Positions 8,723 through 16,919 of a stretch of DNA of 64,000 bases are shown in pieces (within the stretch, counting starts at the first letter, position 1; each line of letters starts with the position of its first letter). The DNA is from Alphaproteobacteria bacterium (lineage in GTDB: Bacteria; Pseudomonadota; Alphaproteobacteria; SMXS01): assembly GCA_028284945.1 (NCBI GenBank), contig JANQQJ010000009.1, forward strand, positions 62,001 to 126,000, given 5' to 3'. The notes beneath the pieces were generated by a model. The model ran no database searches, was not told where the DNA came from, and was given only the letters and a program-made list of their open reading frames with translations. Both the position numbers and the translations under genes were made by a program.

Positions 8723-9502
8723 GTGAAGAATCTATTCGATCTGACCGGCCGTGTAGGCCTGGTTACCGGTGGCAATGGCGGCATCGGTATCGGTATGGCC
8801 GAAGGCCTGGCGCAACACGGCGCCAGCACCGTGATCTGGGGCACCAATGCCGACAAAAATGCAGCCGCCGTGGCGCAGCTTGAGGCCCATGGCGGCGCGG
8901 TGCGGTCAGCCGTTGTCGACGTGTCGGACGAAGACGCAGTTAAAGCAGCGATGGCCGATATCCTAGAGGAGTTTGGACGCATCGACATCGCCATCGCGAA
9001 TGCCGGCATTTCAATCCGCCGAAAGAACCTGTTCGATATTTCAATCGAAGACTTTCGCCATATGGAAGACATCAACCTGCACGGCGTGCTGTTCACCCTG
9101 CGGGAGGCGGCGCGCCACATGGTCGAACGGGCGGAAAACGGTGACCCCGGCGGCTCGCTAGTCGGCATTGCCTCAACCGCTGCTGTGCACGGCGCGGCCC
9201 GCAACGAGCATTATGCGGCGACCAAGGGGGCGGTTGTCACCATGTGCCGGGCGATGGCTGTCGAGCTGGCGCGCTATCAGATCAGCGTCAACAGCATTTG
9301 TCCCGGCTGGGTACGGTCCGGCATGACCGAAGCCTCTCAGAAATGGGACAAATTCAACGACAACGTCATCAGCCGCGTGCCGATGAAGGGCTGGGCCGAT
9401 GGCGACGATTTCGCCGCTATCGCGGCTTACCTCGCCAGCCCCGCATCACGCTATCATACCGGTGACACGCTGGTGATCGACGGCGGGTATACGATTTATT
9501 GA
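8723..9502 (+). CDS. SDR-family oxidoreductase
   Basis: Classical short-chain dehydrogenase, 259 residues, GTG start. Seen: cofactor motif VTGGNGGIGIG at about residue 13, ANAG at about 89, the Ser in GIASTAA, the YAATK active-site pair, and a C-terminal DGGYTIY. First gene of a tight trio: its TGA overlaps the ATG of the chorismate mutase fusion (TGATG), which in turn overlaps the kinase gene the same way. Substrate not predictable; the family resembles 3-oxoacyl-ACP reductase and gluconate dehydrogenase. Confidence 0.88.
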   Translation: MKNLFDLTGRVGLVTGGNGGIGIGMAEGLAQHGASTVIWGTNADKNAAAVAQLEAHGGAVRSAVVDVSDEDAVKAAMADILEEFGRIDIAIANAGISIRRKNLFDISIEDFRHMEDINLHGVLFTLREAARHMVERAENGDPGGSLVGIASTAAVHGAARNEHYAATKGAVVTMCRAMAVELARYQISVNSICPGWVRSGMTEASQKWDKFNDNVISRVPMKGWADGDDFAAIAAYLASPASRYHTGDTLVIDGGYTIY

Positions 9503-10767
9503 TGCGCGCGCTGCTGCTGTCATTGCTGGTGCTGCTAGCTCAGGCCGGGCCAGCCGCGGCCACTGACCGCATGGTGTCATCAGAAGTCTTGCGGCTTACC
9601 GACCTGATTGCCTACCGGTTGGAGTTGATGCCGTCTGTCGCCGCCTGGAAGTGGCGCAATGATCGGCCGATAGAGGACCTGGCGCGCGAGGCCATTGTGC
9701 TGGATGCGGCCTCGGCGCGGGCTGGCGAACTGGGCCTCGATTCGAATTCGGCGAAAGCCTTTCTGGCCGCCCAGATCGAAGCGTCAAAGGCTGTACAGCA
9801 GATCAGTTTTGACCGGTGGCAGCGTGAGGGGTTTCCACCCGATCTGCCGGATCAGGACTTGAAGCGCCTGCTGCGGCCGGCGATCAGTGCCGCCGGGGAT
9901 GCCATCCTCGAGCAACTGGTGCTTGCCCGGCCATTGCTCGACGATCCGTGGCATCTTCAGGCGTTTACCGAAATTCTGGCGGCGCGGGCCAAAGCGATGG
10001 GGCTACAGCCTGAAACAGCGCAGGAGATTGTATCGGCCGCAGCCAATCTCTCCTTCGCCCCGGTACCGGCCACGCTGCTGGACCGTATTCTTCAGCAGGG
10101 CACGCTGCGCGTCGGAACAACGGGTGATTACGCACCGTTCAGTAGCGGCGGCAATGGCGACCTCAAAGGGATCGATATCGATCTGGCGCAGAATCTGGCG
10201 AACAGCCTGGGTGTTGAAATCGAATGGGTTGAGACAAGCTGGCCAAGCTTGATGGATGACTTCCGGGCCGGCGCGTTCGACATCGGCATGAGCGGGATCA
10301 GCCGCACGCTGGAACGCCAGCGGGACGGCTATTTCTCGCAGCCATACCACACCGGTGGCAAAACGCCGATTGTCCGCTGTGGCGAGGAAGCGCAGTTTGA
10401 TACGCTGGACGAAATCGACCGGCCTGATGTCCGCGTCATTGTGAATCCCGGCGGCACCAATCAGAGGTTTGTTGATGCCAATCTCGAAGACGCCGACGTG
10501 CGGGTCTTCCCCGACAACCGGACCGTTTTCGCCGAGATCGCCGAAAACCGCGCCGATGTCATGATCACAGATCAGATCGAGGTGCGGTTGCAGAGTTCTC
10601 TGATGCCGACGCTCTGTCCGGCGCTGGAAGGCACCTTCACGCACTCAGAAAAAGCGTTTCTGCTGCCCCGTGACCAAACTTGGTTGAATTATGTTAACGC
10701 TTGGCTGGATCAGGCAAAGGGAATGGGTCAGGTGCAGGAGGCATTTATACGTCATTTGGCACAGTGA
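9502..10767 (+). CDS. Secreted chorismate mutase (AroQ gamma) fused to cyclohexadienyl dehydratase (PheC-like)
   Basis: 421 residues with an N-terminal signal peptide (hydrophobic LLLSLLVLLAQAGPAAA), so likely periplasmic. Residues about 25-170 match the secreted AroQ-gamma pattern: RLELMPSVAAWKW, PIEDLARE, FLAAQIEASKAVQQ. From about residue 195 comes a periplasmic-binding-protein fold opening with LRVGTTGDYAPFS and matching PheC. Together these would turn chorismate into prephenate and then phenylpyruvate (or arogenate into phenylalanine). Alternatively the second half only binds an amino acid, since PheC and solute-binding proteins share the fold. ATG 9502 overlaps the upstream TGA. Confidence 0.8.
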   Translation: MRALLLSLLVLLAQAGPAAATDRMVSSEVLRLTDLIAYRLELMPSVAAWKWRNDRPIEDLAREAIVLDAASARAGELGLDSNSAKAFLAAQIEASKAVQQISFDRWQREGFPPDLPDQDLKRLLRPAISAAGDAILEQLVLARPLLDDPWHLQAFTEILAARAKAMGLQPETAQEIVSAAANLSFAPVPATLLDRILQQGTLRVGTTGDYAPFSSGGNGDLKGIDIDLAQNLANSLGVEIEWVETSWPSLMDDFRAGAFDIGMSGISRTLERQRDGYFSQPYHTGGKTPIVRCGEEAQFDTLDEIDRPDVRVIVNPGGTNQRFVDANLEDADVRVFPDNRTVFAEIAENRADVMITDQIEVRLQSSLMPTLCPALEGTFTHSEKAFLLPRDQTWLNYVNAWLDQAKGMGQVQEAFIRHLAQ

Positions 10768-12703: not shown

Positions 12704-12721
12704 ACTATCTGATTAGCTAGT
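12704..12721. promoter_or_regulatory. Candidate lux box upstream of luxI
   Basis: ACTATCTGATTAGCTAGT is an 18-bp imperfect palindrome with 14 of 18 symmetric positions and a central GAT as in the lux-box consensus. It lies 42 bases before the luxI start. The outer half-sites differ from the classical ACCTGT/ACAGGT, so it is a candidate for one of the LuxR proteins encoded next door, not a proven site. Confidence 0.4.
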
Positions 12722-12763: not shown

Positions 12764-13396
12764 ATGATTGATGTGGTGACGCCTGAACTAAGGCCGATGT
12801 ATGCGGACCAACTGGAACAGATGTTCCGCCAGCGATATGAGATATTTGTTGAGCAACTAGGGTGGGACTTGCCGTCGAAAGGCTGTGCTGAGCGGCTGGA
12901 GAAAGACCAGTTTGAGAGTGCCGACGCGATATACATGTTGGTTAGCAGTGATGGAATCACTGTCGAGGGTTCGGTTAGGATGCTGCCGACCAAAAAACCG
13001 CATATGATGTCAGAAGTTTTCCGGCACTTGTGTCCTAAAGGAGTGCCGCAAGGCGAATACGTCTGGGAAGTCTCGCGTATGTATGTTTGTGCTCCCCAAC
13101 GGTCCCGCGAGGAGCGAAGGGTTTTGGCACGTGCCCAGGCTATCGGGCTAATTGAATTTGGGCTTCTTTACGGGCTGGAGCAGATAACGTTTCAGACTTC
13201 GACTGACAAGATGCACCTGTTGGACAAGAATGGCTATGACTATGCTGTACTTGGGGACCCTGACCCGCAACCGGATGGAACGGAGAACGTCGCCTGTACA
13301 ATGTTTGTAAGTGTGGCGTCGCTGCACAAAATGAGAGCAATCCATCAAATAGATGGGCCTGTCATACACATGCCCCGCCGTCTGCTAGCTGCATAG
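12764..13396 (+). CDS. luxI: LuxI-family acyl-homoserine lactone synthase
   Basis: Makes an N-acyl-homoserine lactone signal from S-adenosylmethionine and an acyl-ACP (or acyl-CoA). 210 residues. Seen: RQRYEIFVEQLGWDLP with the conserved Arg, Phe and Trp, EKDQFESADAIY with the acidic pair, the conserved Arg in VEGSVRML, the Phe in SEVFRH, and the E-x-x-R pair in VWEVSRMYV. The acyl chain cannot be read from sequence. GAGG precedes the ATG. It heads an array of four luxR genes on the same strand; the region is more AT-rich than its flanks, consistent with transfer. Confidence 0.95.
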   Translation: MIDVVTPELRPMYADQLEQMFRQRYEIFVEQLGWDLPSKGCAERLEKDQFESADAIYMLVSSDGITVEGSVRMLPTKKPHMMSEVFRHLCPKGVPQGEYVWEVSRMYVCAPQRSREERRVLARAQAIGLIEFGLLYGLEQITFQTSTDKMHLLDKNGYDYAVLGDPDPQPDGTENVACTMFVSVASLHKMRAIHQIDGPVIHMPRRLLAA

Positions 13397-13431
13397 AGGG
13401 CAGGGTTCCAGCTAAACCTATTTCTCGCCAA

Positions 13432-13448
13432 AGCAGATACCATTTGCT
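13432..13448. promoter_or_regulatory. Imperfect palindrome upstream of the first luxR
   Basis: AGCAGATACCATTTGCT is a 17-bp inverted repeat (AGCA/TGCT and AT/AT arms) in the luxI-luxR gap, 36 bases before the first luxR start. Possible operator; no functional evidence. Confidence 0.25.
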
Positions 13449-13484
13449 AATGTTTCGCAACATGAGACTTTGATTGATGTGCCC

Positions 13485-14213
13485 ATGATCGATTTGGTCC
13501 AAGAATTCGTGGAAGCTAGCAGACAATCGGAAAGTGAAGACGTGCTTCACGCCCGATTTGGCGAAACCATATCTGAATTAGGGTATGATCGCTTTTGCGC
13601 GTGGTCGCTTGTGGACCCTCAAGTAAGGCCCGATGGTTCAGTGCTTCTCATGAACTATCCTGAGCGCTGGACGTCTCACTATCGTGAGCGGGAGTATTGG
13701 CGGGTTGATCCGACATATCGACTGGGTATGCAGGGCACGGTTCCTTTTTTGTGGACAGATGTAGTTGCAGACAAGGGCCTTACGGCTGCTGAGCGCCAGT
13801 TTATGCGCGAAGCAGGGGATGCCGGACTGCATTATGGGCTGACTGTTCCGGTTAGAGGTGGTCAGGTGCGCCCAGGTAACGTAACAGTTTATAGTGAGGA
13901 TCGGGAATTTGATCCCCGGGCAACTCACACGCTGCATTTGCTCTCCATATATTTGTATGAGGCAGCAAGCCGGATCAGTCTCGATCGCAGTAAGGAGAAT
14001 CCCTACGCTCCACTGGTGCCGTTGACGGTCCGGGAATGCGAATGCATCAAGTGGGCTGCCTTGGGTAAGACCGATTGGGAGATTGGAGAAATCCTGGGGA
14101 TTAGCCAATCGACCGCACATTTTCATATTGAGAAAGCCAAAAAGAAGTTTGGCGTTGCCACGAGAACCCAAGCGGTCGTTCAGGCGGTTGTGACCAATCA
14201 GATTATTCCATAG
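13485..14213 (+). CDS. LuxR-family quorum-sensing regulator, paralogue 1
   Basis: 242 residues, ATG 13485 chosen because MIDLVQEFVEAS aligns with the N-termini of paralogues 3 and 4; the frame extends five codons further. An N-terminal autoinducer-binding domain is followed by a LuxR helix-turn-helix. All ligand-pocket hallmarks (TraR numbering) are present: Trp57 and Tyr61 in RWTSHY, Asp70 in RVDP, Trp85 in FLWTD and Gly113 in HYGLTVPV. The DNA-binding domain (VRECECIKWAALGKT, ending RTQAVVQAV) has Glu178 and Gly188, with Ile at 182. It follows luxI by 88 bases and is the best candidate for the cognate receptor. Confidence 0.94.
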   Translation: MIDLVQEFVEASRQSESEDVLHARFGETISELGYDRFCAWSLVDPQVRPDGSVLLMNYPERWTSHYREREYWRVDPTYRLGMQGTVPFLWTDVVADKGLTAAERQFMREAGDAGLHYGLTVPVRGGQVRPGNVTVYSEDREFDPRATHTLHLLSIYLYEAASRISLDRSKENPYAPLVPLTVRECECIKWAALGKTDWEIGEILGISQSTAHFHIEKAKKKFGVATRTQAVVQAVVTNQIIP

Positions 14214-14226
14214 ACCTGCACCAGGT
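14214..14226. promoter_or_regulatory. ACCTG-CAC-CAGGT inverted repeat between luxR 1 and 2
   Basis: Perfect 5-bp arms identical to the ends of a classical lux box but with a 3-base instead of a 10-base spacer. It occupies the 21-base gap between the two genes. It could be a compressed operator, a small mRNA hairpin or chance. Confidence 0.3.
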
Positions 14227-14234
14227 TTTCGCGC

Positions 14235-14954
14235 GTGGCGTTTCGTATCGTTGGTGAGTTTCTGGATCGTGCGCACCATGCTGCTTCTGAGGCTATGTTG
14301 TGTGACCTTTTTGAAGCGTCACTTGGCAAGATGGGGTGCAATCGATTTTCGGCATGGTCGGATGACGCGCTTCATGGGAACTCGATGGGCGCGATTTCTA
14401 TTGAACAATTTCCCCCTCATTGGTTAGCGGAAGTTCTGGACCGTCAGACTTGGCGCATTGATCCAATACCGCGTCTTGGGCGCTTGACGGTCAGTCCGTT
14501 TTTGTGGACCGATCCACAAGTCGAAGCTCAGTTTGATGAAACTGAAAGGCTCTTTATGAAGGAGGCCGAAGCCGCTGGTGTTTCGGGGGGACTGTTCATA
14601 CCAGTTTGGTCCGCCGGTTCCACGCTCGGTAACGTGAGTGTATTTGCCGACGGCGAACCTGTTCATTCTGGTGCGGTTAATCGCCTACATAATCTTAGTG
14701 TCGTGTTCTACGAAGCCTTAAGGCGACTGAAAACAGTCGACGAGAAGATTGAGCCTAATGAGCTAGTGACAACCGAACGGGACTGTCTTTCCTGGTTGGC
14801 TCATGGCCAGGATGACTGGGAGATAAGCACCCTGCTGAATATCTCCGAAAACGAAGTTCGTATCCATGTTGGGCAAGCCATGCGCAAATTCGGTGTTCCC
14901 ACCCGCACGCAGGCTGTCGTTCAGGCCATCATGACGGGTCAGATTGTCCCCTAA
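14235..14954 (+). CDS. LuxR-family quorum-sensing regulator, paralogue 2 (Tyr61 lost)
   Basis: 239 residues, GTG start 21 bases after paralogue 1. Same architecture: autoinducer-binding domain, then LuxR helix-turn-helix. Trp57, Asp70, Trp85 and Gly113 are present, but where Tyr61 should be the sequence is HWLAEVLDR, giving Val. The DNA-binding half (TERDCLSWLAHGQDDWEIS) keeps Glu178, Leu182 and Gly188. In the family Tyr61 packs against the signal and hydrogen-bonds it, so altered ligand range or loss of ligand need is inferred. Confidence 0.93.
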   Translation: MAFRIVGEFLDRAHHAASEAMLCDLFEASLGKMGCNRFSAWSDDALHGNSMGAISIEQFPPHWLAEVLDRQTWRIDPIPRLGRLTVSPFLWTDPQVEAQFDETERLFMKEAEAAGVSGGLFIPVWSAGSTLGNVSVFADGEPVHSGAVNRLHNLSVVFYEALRRLKTVDEKIEPNELVTTERDCLSWLAHGQDDWEISTLLNISENEVRIHVGQAMRKFGVPTRTQAVVQAIMTGQIVP

Positions 14955-14960
14955 TAATCT

Positions 14961-14980
14961 TGGCCTGCGTTGGCAGACCA
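14961..14980. promoter_or_regulatory. 20-bp inverted repeat between luxR 2 and 3
   Basis: TGGCCTGC-GTTG-GCAGACCA has 8-bp arms with one mismatch and a CTG/CAG core. It begins 6 bases after the paralogue 2 stop and about 97 before the paralogue 3 start. Candidate operator for luxR 3, or a weak terminator hairpin. Confidence 0.35.
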
Positions 14981-15076
14981 ACTTTTATTTTCTGGCCCTT
15001 GCGGACGCTTGCGCACTGAACCCCATTTGGTACGGTTGGGTGGAAAGACAGTTTTGTGTGATTGCTGATTGATTGG

Positions 15077-15802
15077 ATGTTTCGCGAAGTAGAAGAGTTT
15101 CTTGAGGCAAGTCGCGCCGCCCAATCCGATAGCCAGATTGAGGCGATTTTCGCAAAGTCGATTGAGGCCTTGGGATTCGATGCATTCGTCGCTTGGACGG
15201 ACGGTACTGAGGGCATTGAGCTGCCCGGCGGCGTGAAATCCGACAATTTTCCGGAGGATTGGCTGTCCTATTATCTGGATCGCCAATATTGGTCGGTCGA
15301 TCCTATCTATCGCCTGGGTGTTAAGACACAGCATCCCTTCTTCTGGGGCGACCCGGCGTTTACCTCCCAGTTCAACCCGCGTGAAGTCGAGCTGATGGGA
15401 GAGGCTGCGCATGCAGGACTGCAGCAAGGCCTTGTTGTTCCGGTGCGTTATGCTAACGACCGTCCAGGCACCGTTTCGGTCTTGGGCGGTGCTGATCCAG
15501 GCAAGGGTGGGGCGGCGGTCAAGCTGCACAACCTTGCTGTATACTTTTATGGATTATTGCGTCGATCGTCGCAGCGCCGAAGTGCAAGGGGCTCTGAGTA
15601 TGCAGGTTGTCTGACACAAAGGGAGCGTGAGTGTTTGCTGTGGTTGGCCGCTGGTAGAACAGATTGGGATATCAGCGCCATCCTCGGCGTCAGCGAATCG
15701 GGCGTGCGTCTTCACGTCGCACGCGCGATGCGCAAACTTGGTGTTCCAACGCGCACACAGGCCGTCGCGCAGGCGATTATTACCTCACAGATCATTCCCT
15801 GA
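15077..15802 (+). CDS. LuxR-family quorum-sensing regulator, paralogue 3
   Basis: 241 residues, ATG 15077 (MFREVEEFLEAS) chosen by alignment with paralogue 4; a TTG lies five codons upstream. Ligand-pocket hallmarks are all present: DWLSYY (Trp57, Tyr61), SVDP (Asp70), FFWGD (Trp85) and QQGLVVPV (Gly113). Helix-turn-helix TQRERECLLWLAAGRTDWDIS is canonical with Glu178, Leu182 and Gly188. It has its own 122-base upstream gap with a palindrome, so may be transcribed separately from luxR 1-2. Likely a full, functional receptor. Confidence 0.93.
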   Translation: MFREVEEFLEASRAAQSDSQIEAIFAKSIEALGFDAFVAWTDGTEGIELPGGVKSDNFPEDWLSYYLDRQYWSVDPIYRLGVKTQHPFFWGDPAFTSQFNPREVELMGEAAHAGLQQGLVVPVRYANDRPGTVSVLGGADPGKGGAAVKLHNLAVYFYGLLRRSSQRRSARGSEYAGCLTQRERECLLWLAAGRTDWDISAILGVSESGVRLHVARAMRKLGVPTRTQAVAQAIITSQIIP

Positions 15803-15805
15803 GGC

Positions 15806-15818
15806 GCCTTACTAAGGC
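15806..15818. repeat. GCCTTA-C-TAAGGC palindrome after luxR 3
   Basis: A perfect 13-bp palindrome starting 3 bases past the luxR 3 stop codon, in the 171-base gap before luxR 4. Role unknown: operator, terminator stem or chance. Confidence 0.3.
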
Positions 15819-15973
15819 CAAATTATGCTGTGACGGTAATGGCTGGATTCTTACGGATCAGGCTAAGCTGTCCCGTTTTTTGGTTGCGAACGGATTTTGG
15901 CCGCAAAAGCCCTGTACAACCGAAACGCGTGGTTATAGTGTTTCAATACTGAGTCGATGGCCCACGGTTCAAT

Positions 15974-16690
15974 ATGTTTAGAGTTGTTCAGGATTTTTTA
16001 GATTCCGCGCTTGAAGCGCCCGATGAAGTCGCGCTCTGTAGCGCTTTCAGCCACGCCATTGATCAGGTCGGTTACAATCACTTTGCGGCGGGTTCAGCCC
16101 TGGGGTTTGTCGAGCGGCGCCCCGGCACAGTTTGGATACAGCGATATCCGGAAAACTGGGCTGAATACTATCTGGACCGCGAGTTTTGGAACATTGATCC
16201 CACGCTTCGGCTGATGCCCGAATATGGTGATCCATTCTTGTGGTCCGACCCGTCTTTGGCGCATCGTTTTACGCCTGAAGAAGAGGCGTTCATGGCAGAA
16301 GCCGCCGATGCCGGTGTGCGGGGCGGTGTCACCATCCCCATCAGGGGCGCCTTTATGTTTCCAGGCCAGGTTAACATTTATAGCAGTGAGGCAGAGGCGG
16401 CACCTCACGCTATCGCAAAACTTCACAACCTATCCGTGTATTTCTATGACCTGGCACGGCGCCTGTCCATGTCGGATCAGGGGGTAAGGCAACAACCCCT
16501 CAACGCGGCAGAGCGGGAATGCCTGCTCTGGGCCTCGCTCGCCAAACCGGATTGGGAAATCGCGGCATTGACCGGCGAGGCGGAGAAGAATGTGCGGCTC
16601 TGCATCAGGAACGCTCAGCAGAAACTGGGCGTATCGACCCGTGTTCAGGCCGTTGTGCAGGCGGTTTTGACCGAGCAGATCACGCTCTAA
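15974..16690 (+). CDS. LuxR-family quorum-sensing regulator, paralogue 4 (degenerate DNA-binding domain)
   Basis: 238 residues, ATG 15974. The ligand domain is intact: NWAEYY (Trp57, Tyr61), NIDP (Asp70), FLWSD (Trp85) and RGGVTIPI (Gly113). The DNA-binding domain has drifted: AERECLLWASLAKPDWEIA has Ala where Gly188 is nearly invariant, and the recognition-helix region TGEAEKNVRLCIRNAQQKL lacks the usual Ser and Thr/Ser-Val turn. The ligand-binding half is thus better preserved than the DNA-binding half, suggesting a signal sink or heterodimer partner (inferred). It ends in QITL, where the others end in QI(I/V)P. Confidence 0.92.
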   Translation: MFRVVQDFLDSALEAPDEVALCSAFSHAIDQVGYNHFAAGSALGFVERRPGTVWIQRYPENWAEYYLDREFWNIDPTLRLMPEYGDPFLWSDPSLAHRFTPEEEAFMAEAADAGVRGGVTIPIRGAFMFPGQVNIYSSEAEAAPHAIAKLHNLSVYFYDLARRLSMSDQGVRQQPLNAAERECLLWASLAKPDWEIAALTGEAEKNVRLCIRNAQQKLGVSTRVQAVVQAVLTEQITL

Positions 16691-16840
16691 CTCCTTAGAA
16701 ACCAAGGTTTTTACCGGCTGGGCCTATCAAACCTATCTGATCAGGTAGTAGGCACGTGACGCGCACTGACTAGACTGGTGAGCGTTACATCGTTGGGCCG
16801 GCCTCAGAGCCGCTTGGTTCTGGGCCACAAGGGTAACCTC

Positions 16841-16870
16841 GCCGGGCATGGGCCGATTTTGCCCCGGCGG
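16841..16870. terminator. GC-rich hairpin between luxR 4 and the sulfurtransferase
   Basis: GCCGGGCA pairs with TGCCCCGGC (one bulged C) around a roughly 12-base loop. It lies in the 229-base gap between the convergent luxR 4 and sulfurtransferase genes. No clear T-run follows, so termination is only a guess. The rest of the gap shows nothing I recognise. Confidence 0.3.
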
Positions 16871-16919
16871 GGTTGTCCTGTTTCTGTGTGGCCGGTACTG
16901 ATCGCCCAAGTTGATCGGG

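Follow-up and report, generated by a model that had tools for sequence, protein, structure and literature searches.

A luxI gene followed by four tandem luxR paralogues in an alphaproteobacterial genome

Tandem luxR genes beside a single luxI have been described in Sphingobium, where the order luxR-luxR-luxI is designated topology T (PMC4288048), and the same work refers to a tandem luxR topology (N) described earlier in roseobacters. We also observed luxR-luxR-luxI in the SYK-6 plasmid pSLPG. Twin luxR solos have been described in a census (PMC4357305), and Photorhabdus carries large clusters of tandem PAS4-LuxR genes (PMC4235431). In addition, a LuxR paralogue can inhibit the main receptor through a heterodimer, as TrlR does with TraR and QscR with LasR and RhlR (PMC13043044). 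A survey of multi-circuit genomes found the nearest relative within the same genome for only about 1% of LuxR proteins (PMC3386692), indicating that new LuxRs are seldom seen to arise by recent local duplication.

Layout of the array and comparison with described systems

We analysed a stretch of 64,000 nt (the window). The preliminary description had reported a luxI gene and four consecutive complete luxR genes on one strand with no intervening gene, and the open reading frames and Pfam matches confirm this arrangement at positions 12764-16690, all on the + strand:

12764..13396, + strand: luxI, predicted AHL synthase, 210 codons (PF00765, 74 bits)
13470..14213, + strand: luxR R1, 247 codons (PF03472, 99 bits; PF00196, 54 bits), WYDPWG pocket motif intact
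14235..14954, + strand: luxR R2, 239 codons (PF03472, 67 bits; PF00196, 50 bits), Tyr61 replaced by Val, recognition helix changed
15062..15802, + strand: luxR R3, 246 codons (PF03472, 83 bits; PF00196, 60 bits), pocket motif intact, recognition helix resembling that of R2
15974..16690, + strand: luxR R4, 238 codons (PF03472, 83 bits; PF00196, 26 bits), pocket motif intact, HTH altered

The spacers luxI-R1, R1-R2, R2-R3 and R3-R4 are 73, 21, 107 and 171 bases long. Judged from the N-termini of R2 and R4, ATG 13485 and ATG 15077 are the more likely starts of R1 and R3, and with them the first and third spacers become 88 and 122 bases.

The luxI gene is predicted to encode an acyl-homoserine-lactone synthase. 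Its product exceeds the PF00765 cut-off of 24 bits by a wide margin, matches several solved AHL synthases (E 1e-19), and carries the catalytic residues R24, F28, W34, D48, R72, F86, E102 and R105 when read in sequence, with Glu51 at the second conserved Asp position. Both PF03472 and PF00196 score above the curated Pfam cut-offs in all four receptors, whose solved relatives include LasR, QscR, TraR, RhlR, CviR and SdiA. NCBIfam gives placement in the AHL-synthase and LuxR families only, none of the proteins reaching an equivalog cut-off. An assembly of near-identical copies is ruled out by the mutual identity of R1-R4 (36-45%), and chance frames are ruled out by four long two-domain frames that fall in one well-supported clade.

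The host genome (3.56 Mb, 44 contigs, 99% complete) holds two luxI genes and seven Autoind_bind genes, four of the latter in the array. Its nearest named relatives are alphaproteobacteria, and the organism is assigned to that class accordingly. A second luxR/luxI pair lies on contig C11, and in the tree its receptor groups with LasR-like receptors, unrelated to the array. The neighbours of the array encode an SDR, a RidA-like protein, a rhodanese (downstream of the array) and a 3-hydroxyacyl-CoA dehydrogenase; none of these was found next to the orthologous luxI in G001 or G003, two other genomes of the family. The GC content of the array is 52-57%, and both its GC and GC3 are below those of nearly all long frames of the window, which may reflect foreign origin or relaxed codon bias. 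We looked for a relative of the array in viral contigs, as a sign of mobile or viral origin, and found none. Elsewhere in the window, a chorismate mutase type II domain is fused to a family 3 solute-binding domain (9499-10767), perhaps forming an exported mutase-dehydratase.

The array resembles the Sphingobium system in that several diverged luxR genes (about 50% identical there) form a same-strand tandem next to a single luxI, and one of the two Sphingobium LuxRs also has V at Tyr61. However, the two Sphingobium receptors lie upstream of luxI and are followed by phyH and virB, whereas the four receptors here lie downstream of luxI, belong to a different LuxR clade and adjoin no conjugation genes. 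The gene order of topology T, luxR-luxR-luxI-phyH-X-virB, is therefore not that of the array, which starts with luxI, continues with four luxR genes and has the rhodanese gene downstream. Twin luxR solos share the adjacency of luxR genes, but they comprise two genes and luxI is not nearby. The Photorhabdus clusters are likewise large tandem LuxR-type sets, but they have a PAS4 sensor domain instead of a lactone-binding domain, and no luxI.

The preliminary description stated that no such layout was known. This holds for the four-receptor version, as the literature searched (papers open without subscription) contained no example of a luxI together with four luxR genes, but it does not hold for tandem receptors beside luxI in general, because the two-receptor form is the one described in Sphingobium. 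The four-receptor array is an extension of that known layout. Among the matches listed for 386 genomes of the class and 397 of the phylum (overlapping samples, about 780 genomes in all), there is no other run of at least three Autoind_bind genes. As a separate observation, four tandem LuxR-like genes occur at L017:4989-7988, and two each in L018, L020, L021 and L013. The pocket residues are degenerate in those of L017, L018, L020 and L021, and no luxI was detected in the flanks of any of the five loci (within 6 kb for L017).

Origin of the array

The maximum-likelihood tree places R1-R4 in one clade with the topology (R1,(R4,(R2,R3))) in two separate analyses. The support (bootstrap/SH-aLRT) is 100/97 for R1-R4, 99/98 for R2+R3+R4 and 97/92 for R2+R3. 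A clade of R1 with the nearest two outside LuxRs (those of HF-Din21 and G003) is rejected by the AU test (p 0.015). Together, these results indicate that local duplications of the cognate receptor gave rise to the array. The preliminary description had proposed tandem duplication, with separately acquired receptors in unrelated branches as the contrary outcome; the well-supported single clade bears out the former. R1 has the shortest branch of the four. The end branches span 0.4-0.9 changes per site, and the frames are all intact.

The closest relatives of R1 outside the genome, and of this LuxI, are found in the MAG HF-Din21 (L010) and in G003 (L116), and in both the luxR adjoins a luxI. A single receptor is seen in each, unlike in the array; the gene order is the same in G003 (luxI then luxR, on one strand) and reversed in HF-Din21 (luxR-luxI). 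G001 has the same order as G003 as far as its contig reaches. The nearest relatives and this single-receptor order indicate that the expansion to four has so far been seen only in this lineage. In G003, we also noted two luxR 3' ends that are 96% identical on two contigs (L163:1-477 and L164:1398-1874). They represent either strain variants or a second tandem copy, and look like an assembly bubble of strain variants rather than a second array.

Divergence and possible roles of the receptors

Six pocket residues are conserved in LuxR proteins, W57, Y61, D70, P71, W85 and G113 (PMC10134790). All six are kept in R1, R3 and R4, and R2 has V at 61. The pocket-lining positions differ among all four receptors, with 9-11 of 24 in common with R1, in an alignment whose N-terminal half is uncertain. 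The HTH residues E178, L182 and G188 are all present in R2 and R3, while R1 has I at 182 and R4 has A at 188. Among the four DNA-binding domains, that of R4 is the most altered: in addition to the Gly188 to Ala change, a conserved His is replaced by Cys and the helix-capping Ser by Ala, and the domain scores 26 bits to GerE. The identity of the DNA-binding domain to outside LuxRs is 45-63% for R1 and 34-48% for R4, mostly higher for R1. AlphaFold2 nevertheless predicts a complete LuxR fold for R4, with a mean pLDDT of 87 and all four HTH helices, and Foldseek matches this model to full-length TraR, QscR, LasR and RhlR. The overall TM-scores are low, which would be expected from a different arrangement of the two domains. 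With its predicted fold intact, R4 is not to be called HTH-less.

The whole is probably best explained as a single-signal, multi-receptor quorum-sensing locus. The starting point would be a luxI-luxR pair, a layout that two other genomes of the family still show, and the tree shows its expansion within this lineage by successive tandem duplications of luxR. R1, with its intact motif and short branch, would have stayed the cognate receptor, and R2, R3 and R4 have diverged from it both in the pocket for the signal and in the helix that recognises DNA. The latter three would most likely recognise the same acyl-homoserine lactone or a related one, and would then bind other promoters or form heterodimers with R1. 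Split roles among R1-R4, as put forward in the preliminary description, are plausible from the sequences, being consistent with the Y61V change in R2, the HTH changes in R4 and the differing recognition helices. R4, as the receptor with the most altered HTH, would be the foremost candidate for a dampening partner of R1. The inhibition by TrlR and QscR is the model proposed for this role; however, TrlR is without a DNA-binding domain and QscR is an unlinked solo, whereas R4 keeps a predicted folded HTH and is linked to luxI.

The strong pocket-lining differences also suggest that R2-R4 may read other ligands. In the strict form of this alternative, which we regard as rather doubtful, R1 alone serves the LuxI signal, and R2-R4, which are linked to luxI only because of their origin there, are receptors for other ligands such as foreign lactones or non-lactone signals. 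The absence of Tyr61 from R2 and the wide pocket-lining differences among the four agree with it, as does the response of LuxR solos with changed W57/Y61 to plant signals (PMC10134790), but R3 and R4 retain the full WYDPWG motif, and shared control is suggested by the linkage to luxI and by the palindromes on either side. The locus places four sister receptors next to a single synthase, and a closely related pair of the ancestral type can be compared with it, so that the evolution of receptor specificity, of receptor-DNA specificity and of heterodimer interference can be tested directly within one locus. It lends itself naturally to testing how a single signal may be read in several ways.

Flanking palindromes, hairpins and a proposed regulatory circuit

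An operator-like palindrome, AAAAAC-CTAYCTNATNAGGTAG, is present at both edges of the array, and two hairpins bear on the limits of its transcripts:

12705..12720, + strand: lux-box-like palindrome CTATCTGATTAGCTAG, 43 nt upstream of the luxI ATG, with an A-tract upstream
14955..15076, + strand: R2-R3 gap, with a weak hairpin and T-run at 14969-14982
16733..16748, + strand: second lux-box-like palindrome CTATCTGATCAGGTAG, 42 nt after the R4 stop
16829..16880, + strand: strong GC-rich hairpin (-31.6 kcal/mol, z -3.0)

The 16-mer CTANCTNATNAGNTAG has only two exact copies in the 3.56-Mb genome, both flanking the array, compared to about 0.08 copies expected from base composition; a reversed-pattern control gave one match per strand. 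Because the motif was initially derived from the window and G003, the host-genome count alone is circular, and independent support comes from its recurrence in G001, from the further sites in G003 and from its absence from genus g3. Among relatives with an orthologous luxI, G003 has four sites and G001 two. No exact match was found in any of the seven genomes of genus g3 of the same family, whose luxI genes are of other kinds or more distant. The presence of the palindrome thus tracks that of this luxI across 10 genomes.

When the sites are aligned in one orientation, an upstream A-run is common to all. Two of the relatives' sites lie 5' of genes for PAS-containing sensors (a histidine kinase in G003), and one G003 site precedes a REC-EAL gene that immediately follows luxR. 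This REC-EAL gene has only a 29% identical relative in the host genome. A further site follows an FAH-family gene; this is seen in two genomes (L159:1501-1516 and L160:1501-1516), with an imuA-type DNA-repair-like gene farther on, as judged by eye. A palindrome before luxI was looked for in G001 and G003, and none is there. By position and distribution, the palindrome is a plausible lux box operator candidate. That the palindromes are instead bidirectional terminators appears unlikely: some copies in G001 and G003 are flanked by A-runs and T-runs in a terminator-like manner and one pair directly follows the FAH gene, but three sites are located 5' of the gene towards which they point, and in that orientation would terminate no gene, only one side retains the A-run, the luxI-side copy has no following T-run, and the motif tracks this luxI.

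If the palindromes are operators, one or more of the receptors would act through these sites at the two ends of the array. Autoinduction of luxI and the array would run through the first site; the second would either promote a short transcript or be the trace of a promoter that was once a target. No + strand gene lies close downstream of the second box. The hairpin at 16829-16880 is likely, from its predicted folding, to be a terminator, either for the transcript of the array or for a short one of about 100 nt driven by the box. No Rfam match was found in the region up to E 1. The hairpin at 14969-14982 is a possible transcription break between R2 and R3. A terminator in that gap was considered and rejected, the terminator-like match being without folding support (z -0.96).

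A fuller version of the single-signal reading is offered tentatively, as a possibility: one signal would be decoded by four receptors that differ in pocket, DNA specificity and heterodimer partner, with feedback through the flanking operators and a short box-driven downstream RNA. If true, graded or combinatorial outputs would be obtained from one signal. It is quite improbable that the extra luxR copies are neutral, decaying leftovers of duplication without a present role, as none of the four frames is broken despite 0.4-0.9 changes per site on the end branches and R4 is predicted by AlphaFold2 to fold fully, although the HTH of R4 scores low (26 bits) and HTH loss is evident in a different luxI-linked LuxR of the same family.

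In two other genera of the family, we also observed LuxR proteins with an intact pocket motif and a decaying or truncated HTH (L117:6677-7375, L118:7588-8274, L120:6889-7497, L121:6390-7112 and L125:6270-7007). The member in L121 is split between two frames. A luxI adjoins the gene in four of the five cases, and none was detected near that of L125. These proteins possibly represent a progressive conversion to a DNA-binding-free receptor.
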